Positions 7,958-29,326 of a DNA stretch of 46,024 bases are shown piece after piece. This stretch comes from Nitrospira sp. (GTDB lineage Bacteria; Nitrospirota; Nitrospiria; Nitrospirales; Nitrospiraceae): NCBI GenBank assembly GCA_030692565.1, contig JAUYAO010000002.1:1-46024 (forward strand), given 5' to 3'. The notes beneath the pieces are model-generated. The model did not search any database. It was not told the DNA's origin and saw only the letters and a program-made list of their open reading frames with translations. Position numbers and translations under genes: made by a program. Every line of letters starts with the position of its first letter. The first letter of the stretch is position 1.

Positions 7958-9031
7958 CTACACAATTCGTCGCAGGCCTGGCACTCGCTGCATGAGCATG
8001 ACGAGGCAGAATGTGATGGCGCAGGTCGCGAGGAAGGTGATCGGTACGTAGTAGGGGGGGCGAAGCAGGATCGGGACGGCGAGGAAGTACCCATAGCGCA
8101 GCAATTCCACCACGATGGGATGGGCCACGTAGACGCCGAGCGTGAGCGGTGCGAGCGTCTGTGCAATGGATTCTACTTTTGGAGAAATCGTCCCCTGCAG
8201 GATCAGCAGGAAGAGGCCGACGGCCATCACCATGTCGGTGGGGCTGAAATCCTCGTAGAAATAGAAGGCCCAGCGGTCGTCGTATCCGCGCGTCGAGACG
8301 AGAATGGCTGTCAGGAGCGTGGTGGTCGCAGCGGCGATCATGATCGCGAATGCGAGGCGCGACGGCCGCTCGATCCGGAGCCGCGCGCAATACCAGCCCG
8401 CCAGGTAATAGGTCAGATAGGGGACGAATATGGTGAAGGCGCTGGAGGCGAGAAAATCAAATAGATTAGCCCCCATCGCCAGCCCGGCCATGATCAGAAT
8501 CAGGTCGCGCAACTGCGAGAGGCTGAAGGTGGCGAGCGCTTTCGCGAGAAAGGGTGTGACGAGATAGAGCCCGGCGATGAGAAACAGAAAGTATAAATGG
8601 ATATAGGGCCTGCCGAGGACCATATCACGGCCGATAATCTCAATCGAGAGCGGCTCATGCCAGTAGAAGGCGCGCCAGGCGAAATAGATCGTCGGCCAGG
8701 CGATGAGGGCCGGCAATAACCGGCTCATGCGTTTGGCCCAGAAGGCGCCCGGGCCCGTATATTTTTGCGGGTCGAGCAACAGCGCACCGCTCAGCATGAC
8801 GAAGACCGGGACGCACCAGCGGGTGGCGGCGTCGAGGGCATTGGAGAGGTGCCACTGCAGCGTGCCGAAGAGCTCGCGTTCCATCACGATGGTGGCGGCC
8901 AGGTGCAACAGGATGACCGCGAGACAGGCGCCGACTCGCAGGACATCGTACCGGGCCGAGCGTCGATCCGGCTGGGTGCTTCTGGTGGAGGCTTCTCCCG
9001 ATGAGAGTGGTGTCGCTGATGTCTGTGGCAT
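7958..9031 (-). CDS. membrane acyltransferase, acyltransferase-3 family
   Basis: This 357-residue protein has about ten transmembrane helices and the acyltransferase-3 (OatA/WecH-like) architecture. DVLRVGACLAVILLHLAAT places the conserved His in the first helix, followed by RWCVPVFVMLSGALLL and the RMSRLLPALIAWPTIYF segment. Such enzymes transfer O-acetyl or other acyl groups to surface polysaccharides. It is 61 bases downstream of the glycosyltransferase/DMFase fusion on the same strand, so both are probably one transcription unit, and the acyltransferase may decorate the polymer the fusion makes. Confidence 0.87.
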   Translation of the reverse strand: MPQTSATPLSSGEASTRSTQPDRRSARYDVLRVGACLAVILLHLAATIVMERELFGTLQWHLSNALDAATRWCVPVFVMLSGALLLDPQKYTGPGAFWAKRMSRLLPALIAWPTIYFAWRAFYWHEPLSIEIIGRDMVLGRPYIHLYFLFLIAGLYLVTPFLAKALATFSLSQLRDLILIMAGLAMGANLFDFLASSAFTIFVPYLTYYLAGWYCARLRIERPSRLAFAIMIAAATTTLLTAILVSTRGYDDRWAFYFYEDFSPTDMVMAVGLFLLILQGTISPKVESIAQTLAPLTLGVYVAHPIVVELLRYGYFLAVPILLRPPYYVPITFLATCAITFCLVMLMQRVPGLRRIV

Positions 9032-9092
9032 CGGTGCGGTCCTGTTCGGGAAAGGTCGCGGGGTGAAGGGGGTGCCGAATTCAGAGACGGGC

Positions 9093-12000
9093 TTAGTCTT
9101 CTGCGCGCGTGAATCGAGCCAGTACGTTGCGGGTGATCTGCTGGACGGCCGGATTCAACACGGATTTGCGCAGGTGCGGAGCTTGGAAATCATCGAGCCC
9201 CCAGCTCCATTGCATCGATCCGCTTGAGAAGACCAGCGCGTTGCTGGCGGCGCGATAGAGGGTCACGGCGCCGGCGAGTTGGCCTGCCGGCATACGTGCG
9301 ACGATGTGCGTGCCGGTCGGGCTGGCGGCGCTCAGTCCATCGACTTCATACCCGGCGACGCCCGGCAGCGACGAGCCTTTGGCGAGGCTGGTTTTTGCGA
9401 GCATCCAGGCGTCGGCCTCCTCGATTACGTACGAGCTATCGACGGGATTTTCTACTTCCAGATACATGGTGCCGAGCAAGCCTGCCTCGGGGCGGCTCAC
9501 GGGTGCGTTGCGCCAGCGCGTGGTGGCGAGGTGATCGTTCTCCGGACTCTGGTCGGTCATGAAGGGGTCGCGACGCGGCGTATTCTCTTTGTAGGCCACC
9601 ATGGTCCGGAGCGGCTCCCCAGTGATATGGCCGGGCTCCATGCGGATCTGCCAATAACAGGTATTCGACGAAAAAATGCCGAGATGAACGCCCCGGTCGC
9701 GCGCCTGTTCGATATGGCGCCGCATCTCCCAGGTCCAATATTCATCGTGCCCGATTGAGAGGAAGGCTTGGTGCGAGACGAGCAGCGCAGGGTTCGCATG
9801 CACATCGAGGTTGGTGGCATAGGTGACGTCGTAGCCTTCTCGCTCCAACCAGCGGACCATATTGTACTCCCAGCCGGCGGGGGACGCCGGGTAGCCGGGT
9901 GGGATTGAGTTGGAAATCAGGAAATCGCCCGCCCCGGTTCCGGAGGCTGCGGCGGGAATCGCGCTGCCGGCATAGGGCCGGTTGAAGGACACTTTCGCGG
10001 CCTGCCCTCCGGGACTATTGAACGAATACAGCGAGCGTCCGCCCCAATTGTTGTAGGCCTGATAGGTTGTGACGCTGGCTTGGACGAGATAGGTCGAGGG
10101 GCGCTGATCGTCCCGGACGATAAACAGAATGTAGCTCTCTTCTCCCGAGGGTTCCGCTGTCAGCTTCGCCAGGTAATACCCTGACGGCCAGGTGCTCTCG
10201 CCTTGGGAGCCGGCCGGGATGGTTTGCGCGACCGGGTATTCCCACTGGCATTCGATCAAGCCGGTTTCACTGTCTACGACAGGGGCTGGTTGTCGGTGCC
10301 CCGGCACCTCTATCGGTCCGGACATCTGCCGGGCGCCGAGCCCTCCGTACCATCCCATGCGGTAGATCGTGAGGCGGTACGTGGGTGCGAGCGAATGAAC
10401 ATAGAGACGAATCGTCTCGCCCTGGTTGACGCTGGTTGCGGAGGCATAGCCTTCGATCTCATGATTCCTGGCCGGCTTGGCCAGGACCCAGTCGCTGGTG
10501 CCGGATTTGCGATTCTCGATTTGAACGGGATTGAGCGGGGCGGTGGATTGTCCGGTGGCGAGGGCCGGAGAGATAGCTTCGAGCGCAACCAGCAGGCTCC
10601 AGAGGATCTGACGGGAGGCGACCCGCGCACGTATCGGAAGGACGAATTCTTTGCTCCACTCGATCACCGGGGTCAGCTGAGCGAGCGTGTTGGTCAAGAG
10701 CCGTGCGCCTGCACCTCGTACGCGGTTTGTCATATCGCTGAAGGTTTCTACGAGGCTCAGGCGAAGATCTTGCTGCATTTCGGCGAAGCCGATGAATTGG
10801 CGGATGCCGTAGATCAACAGGCCGGCATTGGCGAGGGGAAAGGCGCCTGCCATCCATCGGAACTGCGAGACGTAGTAGAGCCCCAAGGCCAGGCTGGAGA
10901 GTGCCATGCCCAACTGCAGGGCCAGATCCAGTCCCGCCGTTCTGGTTCGTCCGGAGATTTTTGGCGTCCGACGGAACGGGATCTTGGTCCCGGCGATGGC
11001 CTGTTGCATGGAGGTGACGGCACCGGTGAGATGAATGGGAATCAAGAGCAGATTGAGTGCGTAGACGCGAAAAAGATCCCGGAACGGCCGATAGCCCATA
11101 TTCGCCAGGTCCCTGGTATAGAGGGCGAAGTAAGGAAGCGCGGCGATGAGCATCCAGGGCGTCATCAACTCTGAAGAAAACGGGATGGCCAGCAGCAGCA
11201 AGACGCTCAAAGGGGCGAACGCCAGCGAGGTCAAATAATGAATTTGCAGCAGAGCTCGCGGAACCGTTCTCGCCTGCTTCGGTGTGTGGCGCAGGAAGGA
11301 CAACAATTTGGGCAGAATGATCAATCCCCCGTTGGCCCACCGCGCCCGCTGGATGACCAGCGATCCGAAATCCGGGGGGGTGGCGCTGTAGGCCAGCCGC
11401 TCGGGGTGATTGTGCAGCGACCATCCTTTGGCGAGGAGGTCGACGGTCGATTCGGTGTCTTCAATGACCGTCCGGTCCTGGATATAGCGGCGAACGGTGT
11501 GCCCGTCTTCGTTCGATTCGACGCAGATTTCTTCGAGCGCCGACTTTCTCAGCAAGGCATTGGCGCCGACCCAAAAGGTCGCGCCGAAGTAGGTGAAGCC
11601 CTGATGGACGAGATACTGAATGTCGGTCGTGGCTCCGGCGGTCCGCTCCAGCACGCCCGGTGCGTTGGGGAAGGCGCTGTAGGGCGTTTGGGCGACCGCT
11701 ACCCGCGCATAGTCCGGCTGTTCCATGAGTCGGACGAGCGTGCTGGCATAGTGGGATTTCAAGAGGCTGTCGGCATCGAGGGTGATGACGTAGGGCGTAT
11801 CGGGGATCAGGCGGCTGCCGGCTCGTGAGGCGGTTTCCTCCAGGGCAAGCCCGGTCTGGCGGACCACCGGGCGGACGCGGCGGCCCATGAGGCCCAGGTA
11901 GCTGTTCAAATTCATCGCCTTGTTGGGCTCGTGGGATAGATTGCAGTATTGCTTCCGCTCGAAGACATCAAACTCAACCTGAAAACGGGCCGCCAGTTCC

Positions 12001-20839: not shown

Positions 20840-22582
20840 ATGAGCGACCACCGACCAGACGATATAGGGCAGACCGGCACATCCGGCGCGGGAGCAGGAA
20901 AGCGGACGGGCTCAACCACTCCCGACCCGCTTGAGTTGATCGAACAATGCCTCGCCTCTTTTCCTGAGAACGATCCGCGCCAACAGATCCTCTACAAGCT
21001 CCGCCACTCCGTCATGCTGGCGGCCGCCAGTCAGCAGCAACGGGAGGCCGAATTCAAAAAAATCAGCGAGGTCGTGGCGAAGCTGACGGCGCCGGCCAAC
21101 CGGATCGGCACGTTGCTCGATCTGCCTGGCGAAGGCCTGGCGAGGATCATCGTCGGCGGGGCCGAGTATTATGCGAATGTGGATCCCCGTGTGGCGAATG
21201 CGGACTTAAAGATCGGTGCGCAGATTCTCGTGAACGAAGCCTATGCGGTCATCAAGACACTGGGCTACGACCTGAACGGGCCGGTGCTCAAGCTGACGGA
21301 AGCATTGCCGGACGGGCGGTTGCGTTTCGAGCAGGAGATGGGCCGCCAATCCATGATCCTCCAGCGGTCGAGCGACCTTGTGGGGGTAGAGCTGAAGGCC
21401 GGCGATGAATTGCGGATCGACCCGGGCCACCGGATTGCAATCGAGAAGCTGGAGGACCGGAAAGCCAGGACCCATGTCCTCGACGAAGTGCCGACGGTCA
21501 CGTGGGAGCAGATCGGCGGCCAGCAGGAGGCGATCAGCGCGATTCGCAAGGCGATCGAATACCCCTTGCTGCATGCGGAGACGTTCCAGCAGTTCAAGTT
21601 CACGCAACCCAAGGGGTTCCTGCTCTATGGCCCGCCGGGCTGCGGGAAAACACTGATCGGCCAGGCTGCCGCAGCCAGTCTCTCGAAGCTCGTGAGCGAG
21701 TCGATGGTTGCCGGCGGGAAAACAGAGACGTTGCCCGCGATCACCGGCGGCGCATTCCTCCATATCAAAGGGCCCGAGATTCTGAATATGTGGCTCGGCG
21801 AGTCGGAGCGGATGGTGCGCGACCTTTTCGCCAAGGCCAGAGCCCGCCGCCGTGAGGGAGCGCTCCCGTTTATTTTCATCGACGAAGCCGAGTCGATTCT
21901 AGGGACGAGACGGGCGTCGCGTTCGTTCAATATTTCGAGCACGCTGGTTCCGATGTTTTGCTCAGAGATGGACGGGATCGAATCGTTGCGGGATGTCGTG
22001 ATCATTCTCGCGTCGAATCGGCCGGATCTGATCGATCCCGCCGTACTGCGTCCGGGACGCATCGATCGCAAGATCAAGGTCAGCCGCCCGAATCGGGAAT
22101 CGGCCGCCGAGATTCTGAAAGTCTATCTTACGGAGGAGCTGCCGCTGGATTCTTCCGTCATCGCCGACCGCGGCGGAGACAAGACGAAGGCCTTTGCTTC
22201 GCTGGTGGATGAGGTCATCGACCAAATTTACAAACGGACGGATGAGAACCGGTTGCTCTCCATCCGGCTCCGGAGCGGTCAGAATAAGGTGCTCTATCGG
22301 GGCGATCTTGTGAGCGGGGCGATTCTCTCGTCCATTATCCAGCGGGCGAAGGAAAAGGCGATCGATCGCATGATCCAATCCGGCCAGTCGGCCGGGCTCA
22401 TCGCGCAGGATCTCTCTGATTCCGTATTGGCAGAGTTCCGCGAGGGGGAGATGCTGCCGCCCGATGATGCCGCGGAAGAATGGTTGAAGCTGCTCGACCA
22501 TCATCCGGAGCAGGTCGTCGGCGTGTCGTCCTTCCGGCGCGGTCGGCAGACGGAAGAGCGCTTGATCAATCAGATTATCTAA
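20840..22582 (+). CDS. arc: proteasome-associated AAA+ ATPase (Mpa/ARC)
   Basis: A 580-residue ATPase: an N-terminal helical region (about 30-85) suited to a tag-binding coiled coil, interdomain OB folds (about 90-210), and an AAA+ module with Walker A GPPGCGKT near 264 and Walker B FIFIDEAES near 344. It forms the hexameric unfoldase that feeds tagged proteins into the 20S proteasome. The C-terminus reads RLINQII, which lacks the QYL tripeptide used by actinobacterial Mpa to dock on and open the core. GGAG precedes the ATG. Its stop overlaps the dop start (TAATG), beginning a tightly coupled operon. Confidence 0.95.
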   Translation: MSDHRPDDIGQTGTSGAGAGKRTGSTTPDPLELIEQCLASFPENDPRQQILYKLRHSVMLAAASQQQREAEFKKISEVVAKLTAPANRIGTLLDLPGEGLARIIVGGAEYYANVDPRVANADLKIGAQILVNEAYAVIKTLGYDLNGPVLKLTEALPDGRLRFEQEMGRQSMILQRSSDLVGVELKAGDELRIDPGHRIAIEKLEDRKARTHVLDEVPTVTWEQIGGQQEAISAIRKAIEYPLLHAETFQQFKFTQPKGFLLYGPPGCGKTLIGQAAAASLSKLVSESMVAGGKTETLPAITGGAFLHIKGPEILNMWLGESERMVRDLFAKARARRREGALPFIFIDEAESILGTRRASRSFNISSTLVPMFCSEMDGIESLRDVVIILASNRPDLIDPAVLRPGRIDRKIKVSRPNRESAAEILKVYLTEELPLDSSVIADRGGDKTKAFASLVDEVIDQIYKRTDENRLLSIRLRSGQNKVLYRGDLVSGAILSSIIQRAKEKAIDRMIQSGQSAGLIAQDLSDSVLAEFREGEMLPPDDAAEEWLKLLDHHPEQVVGVSSFRRGRQTEERLINQII

Positions 22583-24111
22583 TGTTGCGTCTCTTCGGCA
22601 TAGAAACAGAGTACGGGATTACGCGCGAGGATCTCGATGAGGTGGATCCGGTCGTCGAGTCCATGGAGCTGGTGCGCGCGCATCTGACGGCGTCGTTCGA
22701 ACGGCGCTGGGATTATGGCGGAGAAGATCCGCACGATGATGCCCGGGGGTTTCGGGTGTCCGGGCTCCAACAGGATAAAGAAGAAGACGACTTCGCCAAG
22801 ATCGATGCGCACCGGCCCTTTTCATTTCATGAGATGAAAAGCGACCTGGTGCTGCCGAACGGCGCCCGCTTCTACAACGACCATACGCACCCGGAGTATT
22901 CCAGCCCCGAATGTCGAACCTTGCGCGATTTGCTCGCGCACGATCGAGCGGGAGAGCGGGTGGTGCAACGCGCGGCCGAGCGGAGGAATCGAACCCTTGG
23001 TGGTCCGCATGTGCAGCTCTATAAGAACAATACCGATCTCCATGGCCATAGTTATGGCTGCCATGACAACTATCTCGTCTCGCGCTCAATCCCGTTTCAG
23101 CAACTGGTCGCAGGTCTCCTGCCGTTCTTAGTCAGTCGTCAGGTGATTGCTGGTGCCGGTAAAGTCGGTATCGAGGCGCAGGAGAGCGGTTTCGTTCCCG
23201 GGCAGTATCAGCTCTCACAGCGGGCCGATTTCATGGAGACGGATCTGAGCGTCGATACGATGCATAACCGGCCCATTCTCAATACCAGGGATGAGCCGCA
23301 CGCCGTTCGGGAGAAGTATCGACGGCTGCATCTGATCATCGGCGATGCGAATATGTGCGAGTATGCGACGGCGTTGAAGGTCGGCACAACGCAATTGGTA
23401 CTGGAGTTGATCGATCGGGGGGCTGCACCTGCGATTGAACTGGCCGATCCGGTTTCGGCGGTGAAGCAGATTTCGCGGGATCCCGACCTCAAAGCGACCG
23501 TGCGCCAGAAGCAGGGGCCGGCTCTTTCCGGTCTGGACATTCAGGAACAGTACTATACGGCAGCCAGGCGCATGCTGGCCGGCGCGGATGCTGAGACGGA
23601 CTGGGTGCTGCGCGAATGGGGTGAGACCCTGGGGCTGCTCAAGCAGGATCGCAGTCAATTGGTCGGTAAGCTCGATTGGGTGACGAAGTTGTGGTTGCTG
23701 GAGACCTTTGTACGGGAAGAGCGGATCGGCTGGGATGATCCCTGGCTGGCGAGTCTGGATCTCGAGTACCACAATCTGAACGCCGACCGTGGACTGTACC
23801 TCGGGCTGGAAGCCGAAGGGAAGGCCTGGCGTATGACCACGGAGGCCGACATTGAGCAGGCCCTGTCCGCCGGTCCTCACGATACCCGCGGTGGGTTGCG
23901 GGGCCTGTGTGTGCGGCGGTTTTCCGATCAGATCAAGTCGATGCAGTGGGAGCGTATTCAGTTCTCGGGCGGGTTAAGGGGCAAGACGCTGGAGATGGGC
24001 GACCTGTTCGATCCGATCGAGGTGCGGGCTTATGCCGAGATTTTTGAACAGGCGGCGTCTCCGGCCGAAGCCGTGGCTGCCTGGAGTATAAGAAAGGAAT
24101 CACAGTCATGA
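22582..24111 (+). CDS. dop: Dop: deamidase/depupylase of the UBact-proteasome system
   Basis: 509 residues. The nucleotide-binding opening is GIETEYG (residues 6-12), an insertion with WDYGGEDPHDDARGF is Dop-like, and Asp100 in NDHTHPEYSSPE matches the catalytic aspartate. KNNTDLHGHSYGCHDNYLV and INTRDEPHA-type (LNTRDEPHA) motifs complete the glutamine-synthetase-like fold. Dop converts the tag's C-terminal Gln to Glu and removes tags from substrates. The start at 22582 overlaps the arc stop; an upstream in-frame ATG at 22480 is rejected because it lies inside arc. The stop overlaps the ubact ATG. Confidence 0.93.
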   Translation: MLRLFGIETEYGITREDLDEVDPVVESMELVRAHLTASFERRWDYGGEDPHDDARGFRVSGLQQDKEEDDFAKIDAHRPFSFHEMKSDLVLPNGARFYNDHTHPEYSSPECRTLRDLLAHDRAGERVVQRAAERRNRTLGGPHVQLYKNNTDLHGHSYGCHDNYLVSRSIPFQQLVAGLLPFLVSRQVIAGAGKVGIEAQESGFVPGQYQLSQRADFMETDLSVDTMHNRPILNTRDEPHAVREKYRRLHLIIGDANMCEYATALKVGTTQLVLELIDRGAAPAIELADPVSAVKQISRDPDLKATVRQKQGPALSGLDIQEQYYTAARRMLAGADAETDWVLREWGETLGLLKQDRSQLVGKLDWVTKLWLLETFVREERIGWDDPWLASLDLEYHNLNADRGLYLGLEAEGKAWRMTTEADIEQALSAGPHDTRGGLRGLCVRRFSDQIKSMQWERIQFSGGLRGKTLEMGDLFDPIEVRAYAEIFEQAASPAEAVAAWSIRKESQS

Positions 24112-24302
24112 TCTACCAGATGATGCCTGAGCGACGGGAGGGACCGGTTGATCCGATGCCGAAGGCGCCGAGTCCGTCGGAAGAGGGCGGCGGGCCGCGG
24201 CGGCCAGATACCGGGTCGCCAGACAAGGACAGTTTGATGAAGCGGATGAAGAAGGTCGATCCGAAACAGGCCGAGCGGTACCGGCAGCGGACAGGACAAT
24301 AG
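24108..24302 (+). CDS. ubact: UBact, Pup-like protein modifier
   Basis: This 64-residue protein is rich in Pro, Gly, Arg and charged residues, with no hydrophobic core, and ends RYRQRTGQ. A small disordered protein with a C-terminal Gly-Gln, placed between dop and prcB, matches UBact, the Pup-like modifier of Nitrospirota and other Gram-negative lineages. The C-terminal Gln would need Dop deamidation before PafA attaches it to substrate lysines. A GGAA-type Shine-Dalgarno precedes the ATG, which overlaps the dop stop by four bases. Its helical KRMKKVDPKQAERYR segment is the probable Arc-binding part. Confidence 0.92.
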   Translation: MIYQMMPERREGPVDPMPKAPSPSEEGGGPRRPDTGSPDKDSLMKRMKKVDPKQAERYRQRTGQ

Positions 24303-24313
24303 AGGAAGCAGTG

Positions 24314-24375
24314 CTGAGTGCTGAGCCATAGGCTCAACTCAGGGAGCAGATTCCGAATACTCACTCAGCACTCAG
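24314..24375. promoter_or_regulatory. long inverted repeat between ubact and prcB
   Basis: CTGAGTGCTGAG (24314-24325) and CTCAGCACTCAG (24364-24375) are a perfect 12-base inverted repeat separated by 38 bases, with a smaller GCTC/GAGC pair inside. It fills most of the only sizeable gap in the operon and could act as an mRNA processing or attenuation element that sets the tag-to-protease ratio. The GTGCTGAG motif also occurs twice in tandem, as in some dispersed repeats. Confidence 0.55.
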
Positions 24376-24404
24376 GACTTTGAACGCAGCACTAGGGTGA
24401 ACCG

Positions 24405-25178
24405 ATGGGGATGCAGGGAGATTTTTTTCAGCTGTTGAAAGAGCAGGGCTATCAATTCGGCCAGCCGACGGTTGCCGGAGCGGGAGTCGATCTGCCGAGT
24501 GCGACGACGATTCTCGCGTTCAAGTATTGCGATGGCGTCCTCGTTGCCGGTGATCGCCGGGCGACGGCCGGCAACATGGTGATGTACGATCGGACGGACA
24601 AGGTCCTCGAAATCGATCGTCATAGTGTCATGGCCATCGCGGGGGTTCCTGCTACGGCCTATGAGATGGTGCGGATATTGGAGCACTCGTTCAAATACTA
24701 CCGGCGGACTCAGCTTCAGGAGTTGAGCTTTGAGGGGAAGCTGCGTGCGGTATCGAAACTCTTGAAGGAAAATGTGGCCGCGGCCTTGGCGGGAACCGGC
24801 GCCGTGGTGCCGGTGTTTGCCGGCTATGACTTCGAGCAGGGCGCGGCCAAGATATTTTTCTACGACATTCTCGGCGCCGAGTTTGAAGGGGTTGAGTATG
24901 CGGTGTCAGGTTCCGGGTCGCCGACAATCCGCGGCATTCTGCACTATGTGAATACCTGGGGCGAGCGTCCCCTGGCGGTGATGACGGAGGAAGAGGCGAC
25001 CGTGCAAGCGTTGCGTCTCTTAACCAGTGCCGCCGAGTTTGATTCGGCCACGGGCGGCGTCAATCGCGAGTCCAGCCTCTATCCGATTATCAAATTGATT
25101 ACGCAGGACGGAGTGCGGGTAGTCCCTGACGACCGGTTGAAACCGCTCTTTGAATCCAAGGTGGTGCGCCATGCATGA
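24405..25178 (+). CDS. prcB: 20S proteasome beta subunit
   Basis: 257 residues with a 33-residue propeptide. The mature protein would begin at Thr34 in SATTILAFKY; in mature numbering Thr1, Asp17 (AGDRR) and Lys33 (DRTDK) are all in place, and SGSGS supplies the conserved serine region. In most actinobacterial homologues Gly precedes the catalytic Thr; here it is Ala. This is the proteolytic ring subunit of the cytoplasmic core. AGGGTGA precedes the ATG. The 3' end (from 25137) is repeated once 97 bases downstream. Confidence 0.95.
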   Translation: MGMQGDFFQLLKEQGYQFGQPTVAGAGVDLPSATTILAFKYCDGVLVAGDRRATAGNMVMYDRTDKVLEIDRHSVMAIAGVPATAYEMVRILEHSFKYYRRTQLQELSFEGKLRAVSKLLKENVAAALAGTGAVVPVFAGYDFEQGAAKIFFYDILGAEFEGVEYAVSGSGSPTIRGILHYVNTWGERPLAVMTEEEATVQALRLLTSAAEFDSATGGVNRESSLYPIIKLITQDGVRVVPDDRLKPLFESKVVRHA

Positions 25179-25330
25179 AGCACGCTGTCGATGGCTTGGA
25201 TCAGTCGGCAGTTGCCGGACGGGTAAGAGTCGATTGAATCTATTTTGCGAATCTAAGGTGGTGCGCCATGTATGAAGAACCCTACCGGTGGGTCGAAGCG
25301 GTCGGCAATCGCCGAACCTATCTCGATGAG
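25137..25330 (+). repeat. 97-base partial tandem duplication over the prcB/prcA junction
   Basis: A unit containing the end of prcB, an AAGGTGG Shine-Dalgarno and the start of prcA occurs twice, beginning at 25137 and 25234. The most conserved core is AAGGTGGTGCGCCATG in both copies. Encoded residues align as ESKVVRHA then MHEARCRW in copy 1, and ESKVVRHV then MYEEPYRW in copy 2. Divergence elsewhere in the unit shows that it is not recent. Confidence 0.75.
25171..25275 (+). CDS. 34-codon junction ORF between prcB and prcA
   Basis: This ORF was formed by the 97-base duplication. Its ATG overlaps the prcB stop by eight bases (ATGCATGA) and its stop overlaps the prcA ATG by eight bases (ATGTATGA). 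The first half is a decayed copy of the PrcA N-terminus (MHEARCRWLGSVG against MYEEPYRWVEAVG) and the last eight residues repeat the PrcB tail. It has its own AAGGTGG Shine-Dalgarno. Whether translated peptide matters or the ORF only relays ribosomes from prcB to prcA is unknown; it may also be neutral debris. Confidence 0.45.
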   Translation: MHEARCRWLGSVGSCRTGKSRLNLFCESKVVRHV

Positions 25331-26092
25331 CAGTTTCGGCAGGGGAGTCCGGTGGTGGCACTGGGCTACGACGGGGGGCTGCTCCTGACGACGGTCAGCA
25401 AAGGGACGTCGAAGCTCTATGAGATTTACGACCGGATTGCGCTCGGAGGCATGGGGCATCCGGCAGATCTGGAAAAGCTCCGATTCAGCCTGTTGGAGAT
25501 GGCGCATACTGAAGGGTTTAACCGGTCTCCGTCGGATGTCACCGGCTCGCGGCTGGTGAAATACGGGATAGCTCCGGTCATCAAACAGGCTTTTGAAGAA
25601 GTCTATAAGGCGCCGTTTATCGTCAGGATTGTCCTGGCCGAGTTGGGTCAGAAGCCGGAGAGGGATACGCTGCTCACGATCAACTATGACGGGACGTTCG
25701 AAGAGCTTAAGGAGTATGCCGTGCTGGCCGCAACGAAGCAGGCGCAGGCGCGTATGCAGGAGTATCTGAAGGCGCAGAAACCGTCTCCCTGCCCGCTTGG
25801 GCAGGGCTTGCAGTTGGCTCTGCGCACCTGGGCGATCGGATCACTGGCGCATCAACAGGATTCGGCAGAGGCGTCGGCTGATGGCGGGCATGAGACCAGT
25901 CGCGAGACGATCGCATCGATTCCCGATCAGACTGCGTTGCTCGCGCATCTCCGTGAGGTGCTGGCGGATAAGACGCTGGAATGCGCGGTCCTGGAGCGGC
26001 AGCAGGTCGGTTCATCCAAATATCGTGCGCTGACGCCGGCCGAGCTCGCACGGTTGCTTCCCGGCGACTTTCAGGCCGTCGTGAATCGCTAA
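25268..26092 (+). CDS. prcA: 20S proteasome alpha subunit
   Basis: 274 residues with the proteasome alpha-type fold: an N-terminal helix/gate region (MYEEPYRWVEAVGNRR), SPVVALGYDGGLLLTTVS, LYEIYDRIALGGMGHPADL, and a C-terminal extension rich in Ala, Gln and charged residues (after about residue 170). It has no N-terminal catalytic Thr and forms the gating outer ring. The extension contains a low-complexity linker and a terminal helical segment not needed for the core fold. AAGGTGG precedes the ATG. prcB-prcA order is as in actinobacteria. Confidence 0.93.
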   Translation: MYEEPYRWVEAVGNRRTYLDEQFRQGSPVVALGYDGGLLLTTVSKGTSKLYEIYDRIALGGMGHPADLEKLRFSLLEMAHTEGFNRSPSDVTGSRLVKYGIAPVIKQAFEEVYKAPFIVRIVLAELGQKPERDTLLTINYDGTFEELKEYAVLAATKQAQARMQEYLKAQKPSPCPLGQGLQLALRTWAIGSLAHQQDSAEASADGGHETSRETIASIPDQTALLAHLREVLADKTLECAVLERQQVGSSKYRALTPAELARLLPGDFQAVVNR

Positions 26093-26093
26093 T

Positions 26094-26237
26094 ATGCTGA
26101 ACCGTATGTGCTGGCTTGAAACGGAGTACGGACTGTTGGTGTATCGGGAAGGCCCCGAGCGCTCGCCGGCGTGGTGTGCCAGCCAGATGTACGATCATCG
26201 AGTTCGCGCGTACGATAGGGGCGCGCCAACATGCTGA
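26094..26237 (+). CDS. 47-codon partial duplicate of the pafA start
   Basis: An ATG one base after the prcA stop opens a 47-residue ORF, MLNRMCWLETEYGLLV..., aligned without gaps to the PafA N-terminus MLNRIFGLETEYGLLV for about 38 residues. Several changes are conservative (Asp to Glu twice, Thr to Ala), but the Gly of the nucleotide-binding GxETEYG motif is Trp. The ORF ends TGCTGA, overlapping the pafA ATG at 26231 by seven bases. The offset between copies is 137 bases, not a multiple of three. It is either a translational relay or a decaying duplicate; it cannot be an active ligase. Confidence 0.45.
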   Translation: MLNRMCWLETEYGLLVYREGPERSPAWCASQMYDHRVRAYDRGAPTC

Positions 26238-27715
26238 ACCGGATATTCGGGCTTGAAACGGAGTACGGACTCCTCGTCAATCAGGATCGGCCCGATCACT
26301 CCCCGACATGGTTTGCCCGCCAGATCCGGGATTATCTGTTCCAGGTTCAGCACCGAGGGGTGCTCGACCTGCACCATCGCGGGCATGATGAGCCGCCGGG
26401 GAACGGTGGTTTTCTGACCAATGCCGGGCGGATGTATCTCGACATGGGGCACCTCGAATATGCCTCGCCGGAATGCCAGTCGCTCGTGGATCTTGTCGCG
26501 GTCGATCGGGCCGGGGATCAATTGTTACAGGAGGCGATCGAGGCCTTGGGGTTCGGCGAGACCATTTCGCTCATCAAAAACAATATCGATCATGAAACGG
26601 ACGCGACCTTCGGATCGCACGAGAACTATCTGGTCACTCGCCGGTTTCCCTTCAGTCGGAGAGGGTTGAGTCCTCTCGTCACTTTCCTGGTCACCAGACA
26701 GATTTTCGCCGGCTCCGGCCGTATCGGGGCGGCGAATCCGCAGGATGCCTGGATCCAGGTGGATCGCCTGATTGTGCCGCGTGGGGCGCTTCGTTCACAT
26801 GGCCCGCAGACGATGATTCCCTATCAGATTTCGCAGCGGGCCGATCATATCGTGAACGATTTCTTCGAGTGGGTGCAGCAGAACCGCGCGATCGTCAATA
26901 CCAGGGACGAGCCGCTGGCGGATCCCAATCAATACCGGCGTATTCATCTGCTCCTCGGCGATTCCAACATGGCCGAAGTGGCCACGGCGCTCAAAATGGG
27001 CACGACGGGACTGGTGTTGCAGTTGATCGAAGAGGGAAAGGCGCCGGCCGGCGTGGAGCTCGACGAGCCCGTCGAAACGCTGCAAGAGATCTCGCAGGAT
27101 CAAGAGCGCCAGTGGATCGTGCGGTTGCAATCAGGCAAGACAATCTCAGCGATCGATATTCAAGAGCAATTTCTCGCGGCCGCGCGAGAAGCCTACGCCG
27201 GGCAGGATGAGGAAACGGACTGGGTGCTTGATCAGTGGGAATCTGTGCTGACGGATTTGCGCGGCGACTATGCCAAGCTGGTCGGCCGGGTCGACTGGGC
27301 CTCCAAATTATGGCTGCTCGAATCCTTTCGCGAGGCCGAACAGCTGGATTGGCAGGATCCGGCGCTCAAGAGCCTCGACCTCGAATATCATAATTTGCGT
27401 GCCGATCGAGGACTCTATTTCGGGCTGCTCGAAGAGGGGCGGGTGCCTCGCATGACGACGGACAAGGCGATTGCGCTGGCGATGGAACATCCTCCACGCA
27501 ACACGCGCGCCTTCGGCCGGGGAGAGCTGGTTCGCCATATCCTAGCGGCGGGTCCACCTGAGGCCTTTGATGATCAGACTCAGGACCAGGGATTCTTCCC
27601 GGCCTATGTCATCAATTGGTCGATTTTCCAGATCAACGGGCGTACCCCGTTCCCCATGCCTGACCCCTTCAAAACCTATGTCCAGGACGTTCGCACCTAT
27701 CTCCAATCCATCTGA
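26231..27715 (+). CDS. pafA: PafA: UBact ligase
   Basis: 494 residues of the carboxylate-amine ligase (glutamine-synthetase-like) fold. GLETEYG opens the nucleotide site, Asp71 in MYLDMGHLEYASPE is the catalytic aspartate, and KNNIDHETDATFGSHENYLV and VNTRDEPLADPNQYRRIHLLLGDSNM-type motifs follow (the last is longer than one motif; key residues RDEP and GDSNM). The C-terminal domain ends DPFKTYVQDVRTYLQSI as in PafA rather than Dop, and the Dop-specific insertion is absent. It attaches the deamidated tag to substrate lysines using ATP. The actinobacterial SHPEY stretch is shortened to GHLEY here. Confidence 0.93.
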   Translation: MLNRIFGLETEYGLLVNQDRPDHSPTWFARQIRDYLFQVQHRGVLDLHHRGHDEPPGNGGFLTNAGRMYLDMGHLEYASPECQSLVDLVAVDRAGDQLLQEAIEALGFGETISLIKNNIDHETDATFGSHENYLVTRRFPFSRRGLSPLVTFLVTRQIFAGSGRIGAANPQDAWIQVDRLIVPRGALRSHGPQTMIPYQISQRADHIVNDFFEWVQQNRAIVNTRDEPLADPNQYRRIHLLLGDSNMAEVATALKMGTTGLVLQLIEEGKAPAGVELDEPVETLQEISQDQERQWIVRLQSGKTISAIDIQEQFLAAAREAYAGQDEETDWVLDQWESVLTDLRGDYAKLVGRVDWASKLWLLESFREAEQLDWQDPALKSLDLEYHNLRADRGLYFGLLEEGRVPRMTTDKAIALAMEHPPRNTRAFGRGELVRHILAAGPPEAFDDQTQDQGFFPAYVINWSIFQINGRTPFPMPDPFKTYVQDVRTYLQSI

Positions 27716-27796
27716 CCGGACCGTGACTCAGGCTCACCGCGTGCGCGCATAACACGCAGATTCTATGAAATCGCCGGCGGAATGATATGCTTGTCA

Positions 27797-27817
27797 CGGG
27801 ACGGGTGATTCGTCCCG
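27797..27817 (+). promoter_or_regulatory. leader hairpin before the 27838 gene
   Basis: CGGGACG-GGTGATT-CGTCCCG is a perfect seven-pair stem (extendable to TCACGGGACG/CGTCCCGCGA with a mismatch), 12 bases upstream of AGGAGG. It may be a terminator-like end of the proteasome operon or a leader structure of the next gene; there is no U-run. Confidence 0.4.
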
Positions 27818-27837
27818 CGACCAGCAGGAGGTCTACG

Positions 27838-28296
27838 ATGAAAGCACGGACGTGGATGATGCAATATGGTGTGGCGATGATGCTTTCGTGCGCGTTCGCC
27901 TTAATTCTCGGGCAAGTTCCGCTGTTTCGTGAAACGGCCGTGGGAAAGTTAGCTGCTTCCGATCTGGTCCAGTTCCTCGGGTACGGTTGCACTATTGCCC
28001 TCGGCTGGCTTGGCGTGCGCCAGTTGGCGGCCGATCCTCCCGAGGAGTGGAAATGGCTGATGCCCTATCGGGCATTGATCCTCCCGATGACGATGCTGGT
28101 CACGGTGATTCTGGCCTATGGCGTCCTGTTGCTGGTGGGCGGTCCGTTTCTGAATAAGTTCGCCAAGGGAATCTACAACTGGGCGTTTATCGTGGGGATT
28201 GTGTCTGCCATTGCCTGGCTCATTGTGACCTGGGTTCGAACCTGCGCTCCGCTTGTCGCTGCGACTGCTTCCCGGCGTCTGAAGAGAGCCGCCTAG
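27838..28296 (+). CDS. small membrane protein of unknown function
   Basis: 152 residues with four hydrophobic helices (about residues 10-27, 40-60, 80-105 and 115-140) and short charged loops. No known domain is recognised. ATG 27838 is preceded by AGGAGG at ideal spacing; an upstream in-frame ATG at 27787 would have to read through the leader hairpin and has no Shine-Dalgarno. It lies between pafA and a convergent hydrolase gene. Confidence 0.75.
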   Translation: MKARTWMMQYGVAMMLSCAFALILGQVPLFRETAVGKLAASDLVQFLGYGCTIALGWLGVRQLAADPPEEWKWLMPYRALILPMTMLVTVILAYGVLLLVGGPFLNKFAKGIYNWAFIVGIVSAIAWLIVTWVRTCAPLVAATASRRLKRAA

Positions 28297-28318
28297 CGGA
28301 TCGTTCCCGGTGGCGGCT
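28287..28318 (+). terminator. hairpin at the end of the membrane-protein gene
   Basis: AGCCGCC (overlapping the stop codon region) pairs with GGCGGCT 18 bases later, followed by TCTTGGTT. It lies between convergent genes, where a bidirectional terminator is expected, but the U-run is poor. Confidence 0.35.
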
Positions 28319-28342
28319 TCTTGGTTGGGGCCGCGACGACGG

Positions 28343-29326
28343 CTACCGCGCGCGAGTCACAAACTCGACAATTCTGTTTTCCGCCCAGTAGGAGTCTTCA
28401 CCGTTTTGGCTCAGGCTGAAGAATCCGCAATGTCCGCCATGGCGAGGCGCCAGAAGCGAGATGGATTGATTCCCGATGAGCTCGGGTTGAGCAAATAGTG
28501 AATAGGGAATGAATGGGTCGTCCTGGGCGGTGATGATCAAGGTCGGGACCGCGATTTGATGCAGCACATGCCGGGCTCCTGCGCGATCATAGTAATCGGC
28601 TCCGTCTCGATAGCCTCCGTCGCGGGCCGTGTAGCAGTCGTCGAATTGGCTGATGGTTTGCATCGAGCCCATCGGACGCAGATCCCACTTCCCCGGAAAG
28701 AGCCCAGCCTTCCGTTTCATGCGCGCTTTGAGCCGTGACAGGAAGTGGTGGTGATAGATCCAGTTGCGTGGTTGCTCCAGAGCCGCTACGCAGTGGGTCG
28801 GATCGATGTTCGGGCATACCGCGACGGCTCCTGAGAAGGCTGGTATCGCTCCTCCCATTTCACCGGCCGCCTTCAGCACCAGATTGCCACCCATCGAATA
28901 GCCCACCAGCCAGATGCGCGTCAGGCCGTCCGCCATCGCCAGTTCTCTGACAATCTCGCGATAATCGCTGCTCAGTCCACTGTTATAGAGGGTTGGCGTA
29001 AGGTGCTCGGTGCCGCCGCAGGTGCGTTGGTTTAGCCGCACGACATTGAATCCCCGTCGGTAGGCTTTTGCGGCTATCCCACGCATGTAATGGGAGTCTG
29101 CGCAGCCCTCCAGTCCATGAACAAGAATGAGTGTGGGTGATTCCAAGGAACGTGGCTGCCAGTGGCAGAATCCGAGGAGCTGCGTATTCGGTTCAGTGGT
29201 AAAGAGCCGTTCGCGCTGAGGGATCTGTCTCAGGGAGAGATCTCGTGGCCAGTACCGTGGCGCCAGGGTCATGAGATGCGCATTCCGGAGTATGGCTGGC
29301 GGAGCAAATCGGTCTGTGTGATTCAT
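28343..29326 (-). CDS. YheT-type alpha/beta hydrolase
   Basis: 327 residues with the YheT/ABHD layout. LILVHGLEGCADSHYMRG gives the HG oxyanion region at about 70-71, GYSMGG carries the nucleophile Ser144, TAQDDPFIP supplies the acid near 267, and HGGHCGFF the His near 297. Bacterial members are predicted esterases or lipases, and the closest eukaryotic relatives act on membrane lipids. The opening FAPPAILRNAHLMTLAPRYW is characteristic. It is transcribed against the preceding gene and has no operon partner. Confidence 0.92.
   Translation of the reverse strand: MNHTDRFAPPAILRNAHLMTLAPRYWPRDLSLRQIPQRERLFTTEPNTQLLGFCHWQPRSLESPTLILVHGLEGCADSHYMRGIAAKAYRRGFNVVRLNQRTCGGTEHLTPTLYNSGLSSDYREIVRELAMADGLTRIWLVGYSMGGNLVLKAAGEMGGAIPAFSGAVAVCPNIDPTHCVAALEQPRNWIYHHHFLSRLKARMKRKAGLFPGKWDLRPMGSMQTISQFDDCYTARDGGYRDGADYYDRAGARHVLHQIAVPTLIITAQDDPFIPYSLFAQPELIGNQSISLLAPRHGGHCGFFSLSQNGEDSYWAENRIVEFVTRAR

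Follow-up and report, generated by a model that had tools for sequence, protein, structure and literature searches.

Decaying copies of gene starts at two junctions of a Nitrospira UBact-proteasome operon, and a possible role in relaying translation

Why should a short open reading frame (ORF) that repeats the beginning of pafA stand between prcA and pafA in a Nitrospira proteasome operon, and could it affect how pafA is translated? We addressed this question in the window, the whole stretch of 46,024 nucleotides that was analysed, which is contig C2 of a 4.17-Mb genome (G000). Pfam and NCBIfam profile searches give the gene order as proteasome ATPase, dop, UBact, prcB, prcA and pafA, the NCBIfam score being above the curated cut-off for UBact alone and below it for all others. 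The features that enter the argument are the following.

24108..24302, plus strand: UBact (ubiquitin-like modifier); PF20513 1.8e-21, NF033388 above cut-off
24405..25178, plus strand: prcB (proteasome beta); PF00227 2e-26
25134..25220, plus strand: first copy of the duplicated prcB-prcA junction; 87 nt, 74% identity, spacing 97
25171..25275, plus strand: prcB-prcA junction, leader ORF that joins a prcA head to a copied prcB tail
25231..25317, plus strand: prcB-prcA junction, second copy, which contains the true prcA start; same repeat alignment
25268..26092, plus strand: prcA (proteasome alpha); PF00227 4.6e-6, TIGR03691 5.5e-21, below curated cut-off
26087..26199, plus strand: prcA-pafA junction, first copy as far as it is recognisable; ungapped 113-nt repeat at 76% identity, spacing 137
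26094..26237, plus strand: leader ORF that copies the pafA start over 47 codons; its TGA (26235-26237) overlaps the pafA ATG by 7 nt
26217..26221, plus strand: AGGGG, Shine-Dalgarno-like, within the leader ORF; 9 nt before the pafA ATG, -5.6 kcal/mol
26224..26336, plus strand: second copy of the prcA-pafA junction, which is the true pafA start; same repeat alignment
26231..27715, plus strand: pafA (Pup_ligase family; UBact ligase); PF03136 1.2e-131, ATG 26231-26233

The prcA stop codon (TAA, 26090-26092) is followed by a single T and then by the ATG of the leader ORF at 26094, which runs for 47 codons plus a stop and lies, ATG to ATG, 137 nt ahead of pafA. A reading of this DNA made from its sequence only had described the same layout, with the ORF one base after the prcA stop, an offset of 137 and a 7-base overlap with the pafA ATG, and its coordinates are confirmed. 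It had also taken about 38 residues of the PafA start to be repeated, LETEYGLLV among them, which is about right for the window, where leader and PafA share 50% peptide identity over residues 1-44 and LETEYGLLV is kept. The repeat is a true duplication beyond chance: its alignment score is 57, and none of 200 shuffles scored above 13. A scan of the 46-kb window for direct repeats of at least 35 nt lying within 600 nt returned three families only: the prcA-pafA junction, the prcB-prcA junction (offset 97) and one 35-nt pair near 1 kb. The members of this last pair (973-1007 and 1090-1124) are 83% identical at a spacing of 117, and an 18-nt exact tandem repeat lies beside them at 1074-1111. Neither Pfam nor NCBIfam, PF03136 and TIGR03686 included, gave a match at E ≤ 0.01 for the 47-residue leader ORF; it is outside the PafA profile family and homologous to the pafA start only.

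The locus was fetched for 66 of the 79 genomes of the genus, the window's included; the other 13, for which no full-length close pafA match was listed, were left out of the survey, and two of these (G020 and G078) each hold a pafA piece whose junction was not read. Comparison of the prcA-pafA junction with other Nitrospira, which the sequence-only reading had suggested, found a single ordinary junction with a gap of 1-8 nt in 57 of the 64 genomes (out of 66) in which it is readable. Such ordinary junctions in relatives are one of the two findings that, taken together, that reading had named as refuting it. Four of the 64 carry a copy of the pafA head: G000, G068 and G039, each with 138 nt (alignable up to nt 129 of the 138 in G039), and G002, with 147 nt. 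Six readable close relatives that lack the copy (G014, G023, G070, G040, G069 and G011) all have a gap of 1 nt. Inserts of 204 nt (G041, locus L048) and 166 nt (G058, L052) in two other genomes were compared with pafA and showed no similarity to it. When the G039 copy peptide was searched against all 79 genomes, two matches per genome occurred only in G000, G002, G039 and G068, and a second set of 80 named loci, overlapping the first, yielded the G039 copy again and no new carrier. The prcB-prcA junction, likewise readable in 64 genomes, is ordinary in 59 (28 at -8 and 31 at +10 to +14) and duplicated in four (G000, G068, G002 and G014), in every case with 89 nt.

Two long junctions proved to be products of scaffolding: the 2.3-kb prcA-pafA gap of G025 has runs of N inside it, and a seemingly fresh prcB-prcA duplication in G074 is the overlap between two pieces of a scaffold that a run of N separates. 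Such cases could raise the suspicion that the copy in the window is itself an assembly artefact; the two copies there differ by 24% over 113 nt, however, homologous copies occur in four separate genomes and no N is present in the carriers' copy sequences, so that an artefact is hardly conceivable. In G051 the assembly stops in prcB, at the left repeat's edge (end of L044), and resumes at pafA codon 51 (start of L015), so that its breaks coincide with the outer margins of the two junction duplications; this genome yielded no close copy of the prcA of this operon, and the breaks may reflect mixtures of strains that differ at the junctions. Five loci of the genus (L090-L094) represent a second, diverged proteasome locus with subunits at 28-38% identity, and in three of the five a pafA/dop-like gene lies 87-90 nt after prcA.

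The phylogeny of the copies was inferred together with 12 pafA heads, and on only 132 columns the four copies form one clade with support of 100/98.9. Because the G000 and G068 copies are near-identical, the four carriers stand for three lineages, and the monophyly of the copies disfavours three independent gains. The comparison shows a single old origin of the pafA-head copy in one Nitrospira subclade. The pafA tree, (((G000,G068),(G014,(G023,G002))),G070),(G039,G040), is strongly supported at seven of nine inner branches, and one gain followed by four losses (G014, G023, G070 and G040) fits it. The copy would then have arisen near the base of the subclade and have been patchily kept or lost, probably with the help of interspecies recombination, the four losses presumably representing recombination with copy-less species. 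A tree of rpoC, in which the G070 row had been cut at the wrong offset, was used only to place G000 and G068 as sisters; rpoC matches were absent for G039, G011 and G051.

The operon is a mosaic. In G000 the 3' half of prcA shares 94-98% identity with that of G023 and 83-91% with that of its sister G068. The last 75 nt of prcB (25104-25178 in the window; sites in L035-L043) occur as two alleles with 62-70% identity, inside clade prcB genes that are 83-89% alike overall, and the Shine-Dalgarno-like site for prcA scores -7.2 to -8.9 in the ESKVV allele and -3.9 in the ETKVS allele. In G002, prcB itself is of the ETKVS type and the second copy of the prcB tail is of the ESKVV type. In the window and the nine readable relatives closest to it, the spacer between UBact and prcB (24303-24404 here) ranges from 87 to 189 nt; in the window, 'agtgctgagtgctgag'-like motifs recur in it, also in inverted form, and may represent a short mobile palindrome. 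For the leader ORF itself, the best reading is a decaying tandem junction duplication and not a conserved small protein.

Codon-level comparison of the copies between lineages gives dN/dS of 0.349/0.278 (G000-G002), 0.354/0.315 (G002-G039) and 0.211/0.507 (G000-G039), and the same 43 codons of pafA give 0.041/0.334, 0.052/0.868 and 0.052/1.224 for the respective pairs. Differences at codon positions 1/2/3 number 14/12/10 for the G000-G002 copies and 13/13/11 for G002-G039 (2/2/8 and 3/1/16 in the same 43 codons of pafA), and are less even, at 10/6/13, between the G000 and G039 copies. Measured against its own pafA, each copy shows dN of 0.28-0.31 and dS of 0.60-1.21, values that include the changes of the constrained gene. 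The leader ORF is intact in G000, G068 and G039 and broken in G002, which has CTG in place of ATG and two in-frame TAG stops ahead of an intact pafA. Since the codons of the copies differ at all positions and the G002 ORF is dead, the sequence of the peptide is under little or no selection; in these few genomes the codon comparison shows an amino-acid sequence that is nearly free of constraint.

A functional peptide, such as a decoy of the PafA N-terminus, might be argued from LETEYGLL, which is kept in three of the four copies, and from dN below dS in one of the three between-lineage comparisons (0.211/0.507). Against this, dN/dS is about 1 in the other two comparisons, the motif residue is variable, the G002 copy is dead and no family match was found, and we regard such a function as very unlikely. 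Nor could a fragment of 47 residues make up the active site of PafA. A peptide selected for its sequence is thus unsupported, with residues drifting near the neutral rate, the Trp confined to two close genomes and the ORF dead in G002. That Trp, which replaces the motif Gly and had been taken to preclude PafA-like nucleotide binding, is real in the window and in G068; G039 and G002 retain Gly, however, so the change is no property of the element.

Copy lengths hardly vary, at 138, 138, 147 and 138 nt on the right and 89 nt in all four carriers on the left. Substitutions per site relative to the window are similar in copies and in spacers, at 0.25 versus 0.14 in G002, 0.25 versus 0.20 in G039, 0.17 versus 0.20 in G014 and 0.02 versus 0.03 in G068. 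In a first, pairwise count, spacers had 0.12 (G002) and 0.16 (G039) indels per substitution against 0.02 and 0 in the copies, the spacer rate being low for G068 (0.03) and G014 (0.04). We relied instead on a three-way count, because it is the more careful of the two, though weaker. Of the 18 spacers of the pairwise count it placed 13 in the right-hand trio and seven in the left-hand trio; the length-variable UBact-prcB spacer was dropped from both and the saturated spacer 9031-9093 from the right trio only, leaving 11 and six in use. The right-trio spacers contain 34 indels (32 frameshifting) on 524 substitutions and the left-trio spacers ten (nine frameshifting) on 244, and the three-way alignments of the copies contain 61 substitutions and one 9-nt indel on the right and 24 substitutions and no indel on the left. 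In an overdispersed resampling (gamma-Poisson per spacer, a model of our own choice), the spacers predict 5.6+1.8, about 7, frameshifting indels in the two copies, and none is seen (P=0.035); P is 0.09 for all indels in both copies together, and frameshifts in single copies are not significant (right P=0.08, left P=0.43). These counts are suggestive of a leader length and frame better kept than those of nearby spacers, and selection, if any, may have acted to keep the frame open in the right phase and the pafA start region usable, and not to preserve the peptide. The open frames of G000/G068 and G039 are by themselves unsurprising and uninformative, since neutral simulation leaves about 0.33 of such ORFs open per lineage at 20 substitutions.

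The pafA start region was assessed by its energy of pairing with the anti-Shine-Dalgarno sequence ACCUCCUUA, which we take to be the general bacterial one. Across 88 distinct short-gap junctions the median is -1.5 kcal/mol, and two of the 88 starts reach -5.5 kcal/mol or better, one of them that of G070 in the same clade. The four carriers stand at -5.6, -5.6, -6.3 and -6.3 kcal/mol, owing to a GGGG that matches codons copied from pafA and lies 9 nt upstream of the pafA ATG. Shuffled leader tails equal these values in 12-37% of trials, so the Shine-Dalgarno-like site of the carriers need not be selected. A structured RNA or riboswitch was rejected, the fold of 26060-26290 being no better than shuffles (z +0.59), and Rfam gave no match at gathering score in 22000-28500.

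We incline, by a small measure, to the view that the leader relays ribosomes from prcA to pafA in the window. Ribosomes finishing prcA would restart on the leader ATG one base past the prcA stop, read its 47 codons, stop on the pafA ATG and restart there, and the coupling of pafA to prcA would thereby survive a 138-nt insertion. With its gap of 1-8 nt and mostly no good ribosome site, the ordinary pafA has the layout of termination-reinitiation, and restart on the leader is probable because the leader presents the same stop, single base and ATG as the pafA of close copy-less relatives. The leader stop, with its 7-nt overlap, lies within coupling distance of the next start (overlapping it, or within about 20 nt). 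In E. coli reporters, a separation of 38 nt lowered reinitiation by 80-90% in two gene pairs and abolished it in a third, and the last 15 nt of the upstream gene were enough for reinitiation in two pairs; the constructs described had 1-nt overlaps and short gaps, a 7-nt overlap not being among them (PMC10666635). Given this loss at 38 nt, an insertion of 138 nt should uncouple pafA unless ribosomes are relayed. With the relay broken in G002, pafA must start otherwise there, which shows that the relay is at least dispensable.

The main rival to the relay is an inert remnant of the same old duplication, a functionless copy whose frame has survived by chance on the way to decay and behind which pafA is started independently at the GGGG that the copied stretch of codons contained by chance. 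It accounts readily for a dead G002 ORF beside an intact pafA, for near-neutral substitutions, for the third or so of ORFs that simulation leaves open and for a Shine-Dalgarno-like site of -5.6 to -6.3 in all four carriers. It accounts less well for the lack of frameshifting indels where about 7 were expected, for a left leader that is open in its four carriers and for a copy that offers prcA ribosomes the same stop, one base and ATG as pafA in the six copy-less relatives. We assign this rival a substantial minority probability.

The second duplication bears on how the first arose. Both border prcA and occur in the same clade with different species distributions, and the leader ORF at 25171..25275, which lacks a Pfam match, overlaps the prcA ATG by 8 nt and is open in all four carriers found. 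The two had been called independent, and they are indeed separable, G014 having the left one only and G039 the right one only. The sequence-only reading had further held that two events of the same geometry are hard to put down to chance; the shared geometry stands, but it needs less explaining than was claimed. The prcB-prcA overlap of close relatives reads ATGnATGA and pafA begins ATGCTGA, so that one third of unit lengths give a frame stopping on the next start, and the spacings 97 and 137 both appear to be of the right length class. The shared geometry is thus partly due to the operon's own start sequences.

A single exchange could have made both duplications, if a fragment with the prcB tail, prcA and pafA head of a diverged relative had been inserted after the native prcA start and before the native pafA, so that prcA came to be flanked by mismatched copies; this would be compatible with either reading of function and is not needed. 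Consistent with it are the position of both duplications next to prcA, the ESKVV type of the second prcB-tail copy in G002 against the ETKVS type of its own prcB, and the mosaic prcA, whose 3' half in G000 is closer to that of G023, a genome with no duplication, than to that of its sister G068. The one-sided cases of G014 and G039 speak against it, however, and the allele mix of G002 is also explained by later recombination in prcB. Moreover, only four fixed alignment differences set the pafA-head copies as a group apart from the clade's pafA heads; the heads nearest to these copies are those of clade members G040 or G014 (101/147 identical), with other heads following within a few bases, so a diverged donor, though conceivable, is not indicated. 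We consider a single exchange improbable.

We tentatively extend the relay to a broader proposal, about which we are more doubtful than convinced: junction duplication may be a natural route to translation-relay leaders, in which a junction of overlapping or abutting genes, once copied in tandem, starts out in a phase that ends the ORF on the true start. Coupling would survive at once, after which only frame and ribosome access would be selected while the peptide drifts. On the same proposal, the two leaders flanking prcA may adjust the proportions of prcB, prcA and pafA to one another in one Nitrospira clade, and other operons too may acquire leaders by this route. If the relay is true, a tightly coupled junction can take up a long insertion and stay coupled, and a single step can give rise to leader ORFs whose peptide is irrelevant. 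The species that have the copy and those that lack it form natural matched pairs for measuring termination-reinitiation. Annotators are warned that ORFs of this origin can mimic conserved small proteins, because a conserved motif has been copied. Among the papers listed in a search of the open-licence literature, judged by title and opening abstract, none described duplicated junctions in UBact or proteasome operons or leader ORFs born by junction duplication; within this scope, the novelty of such junctions and leaders is weakly supported.

Set beside known systems, the operon has the order UBact-prcB-prcA-pafA of the fetched Nitrospira relatives, and differs in that two of its junctions carry decayed copies. 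Partial tandem gene duplication produces adjacent direct repeats, one copy being truncated, decaying and lost in some relatives; here, in contrast, the repeated unit includes the boundary between two genes, and it is in a phase that produces an ORF ending on the true start. The upstream ORF of iraD is reportedly another leader ORF directly in front of a gene. The pair formed by leader and pafA resembles termination-reinitiation pairs (PMC10666635), in which the stop overlaps or abuts the next start, a short upstream frame suffices and coupling is lost over tens of nt, but the upstream partner here is a decayed copy of the downstream start and no native gene, and the overlap is 7 nt where 4 or 1 is usual. 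Synthetic leaders in E. coli increase the expression of the gene that follows them, for which they need a strong ribosome site near their end, 4 nt from the AUG of that gene (PMC13255528); they share with the present leader a short ORF, an irrelevant peptide and a stop near the target start, whereas the candidate site here is 9 nt away and of medium strength, and any boost is putative. A computational survey proposed that natural leader genes without overlap boost expression by reinitiation, with distances peaking at 10-11 bp against the 7-nt overlap found here (PMC4833913). Unlike those leader ORFs, the present leader lies inside an operon and was born by junction duplication.
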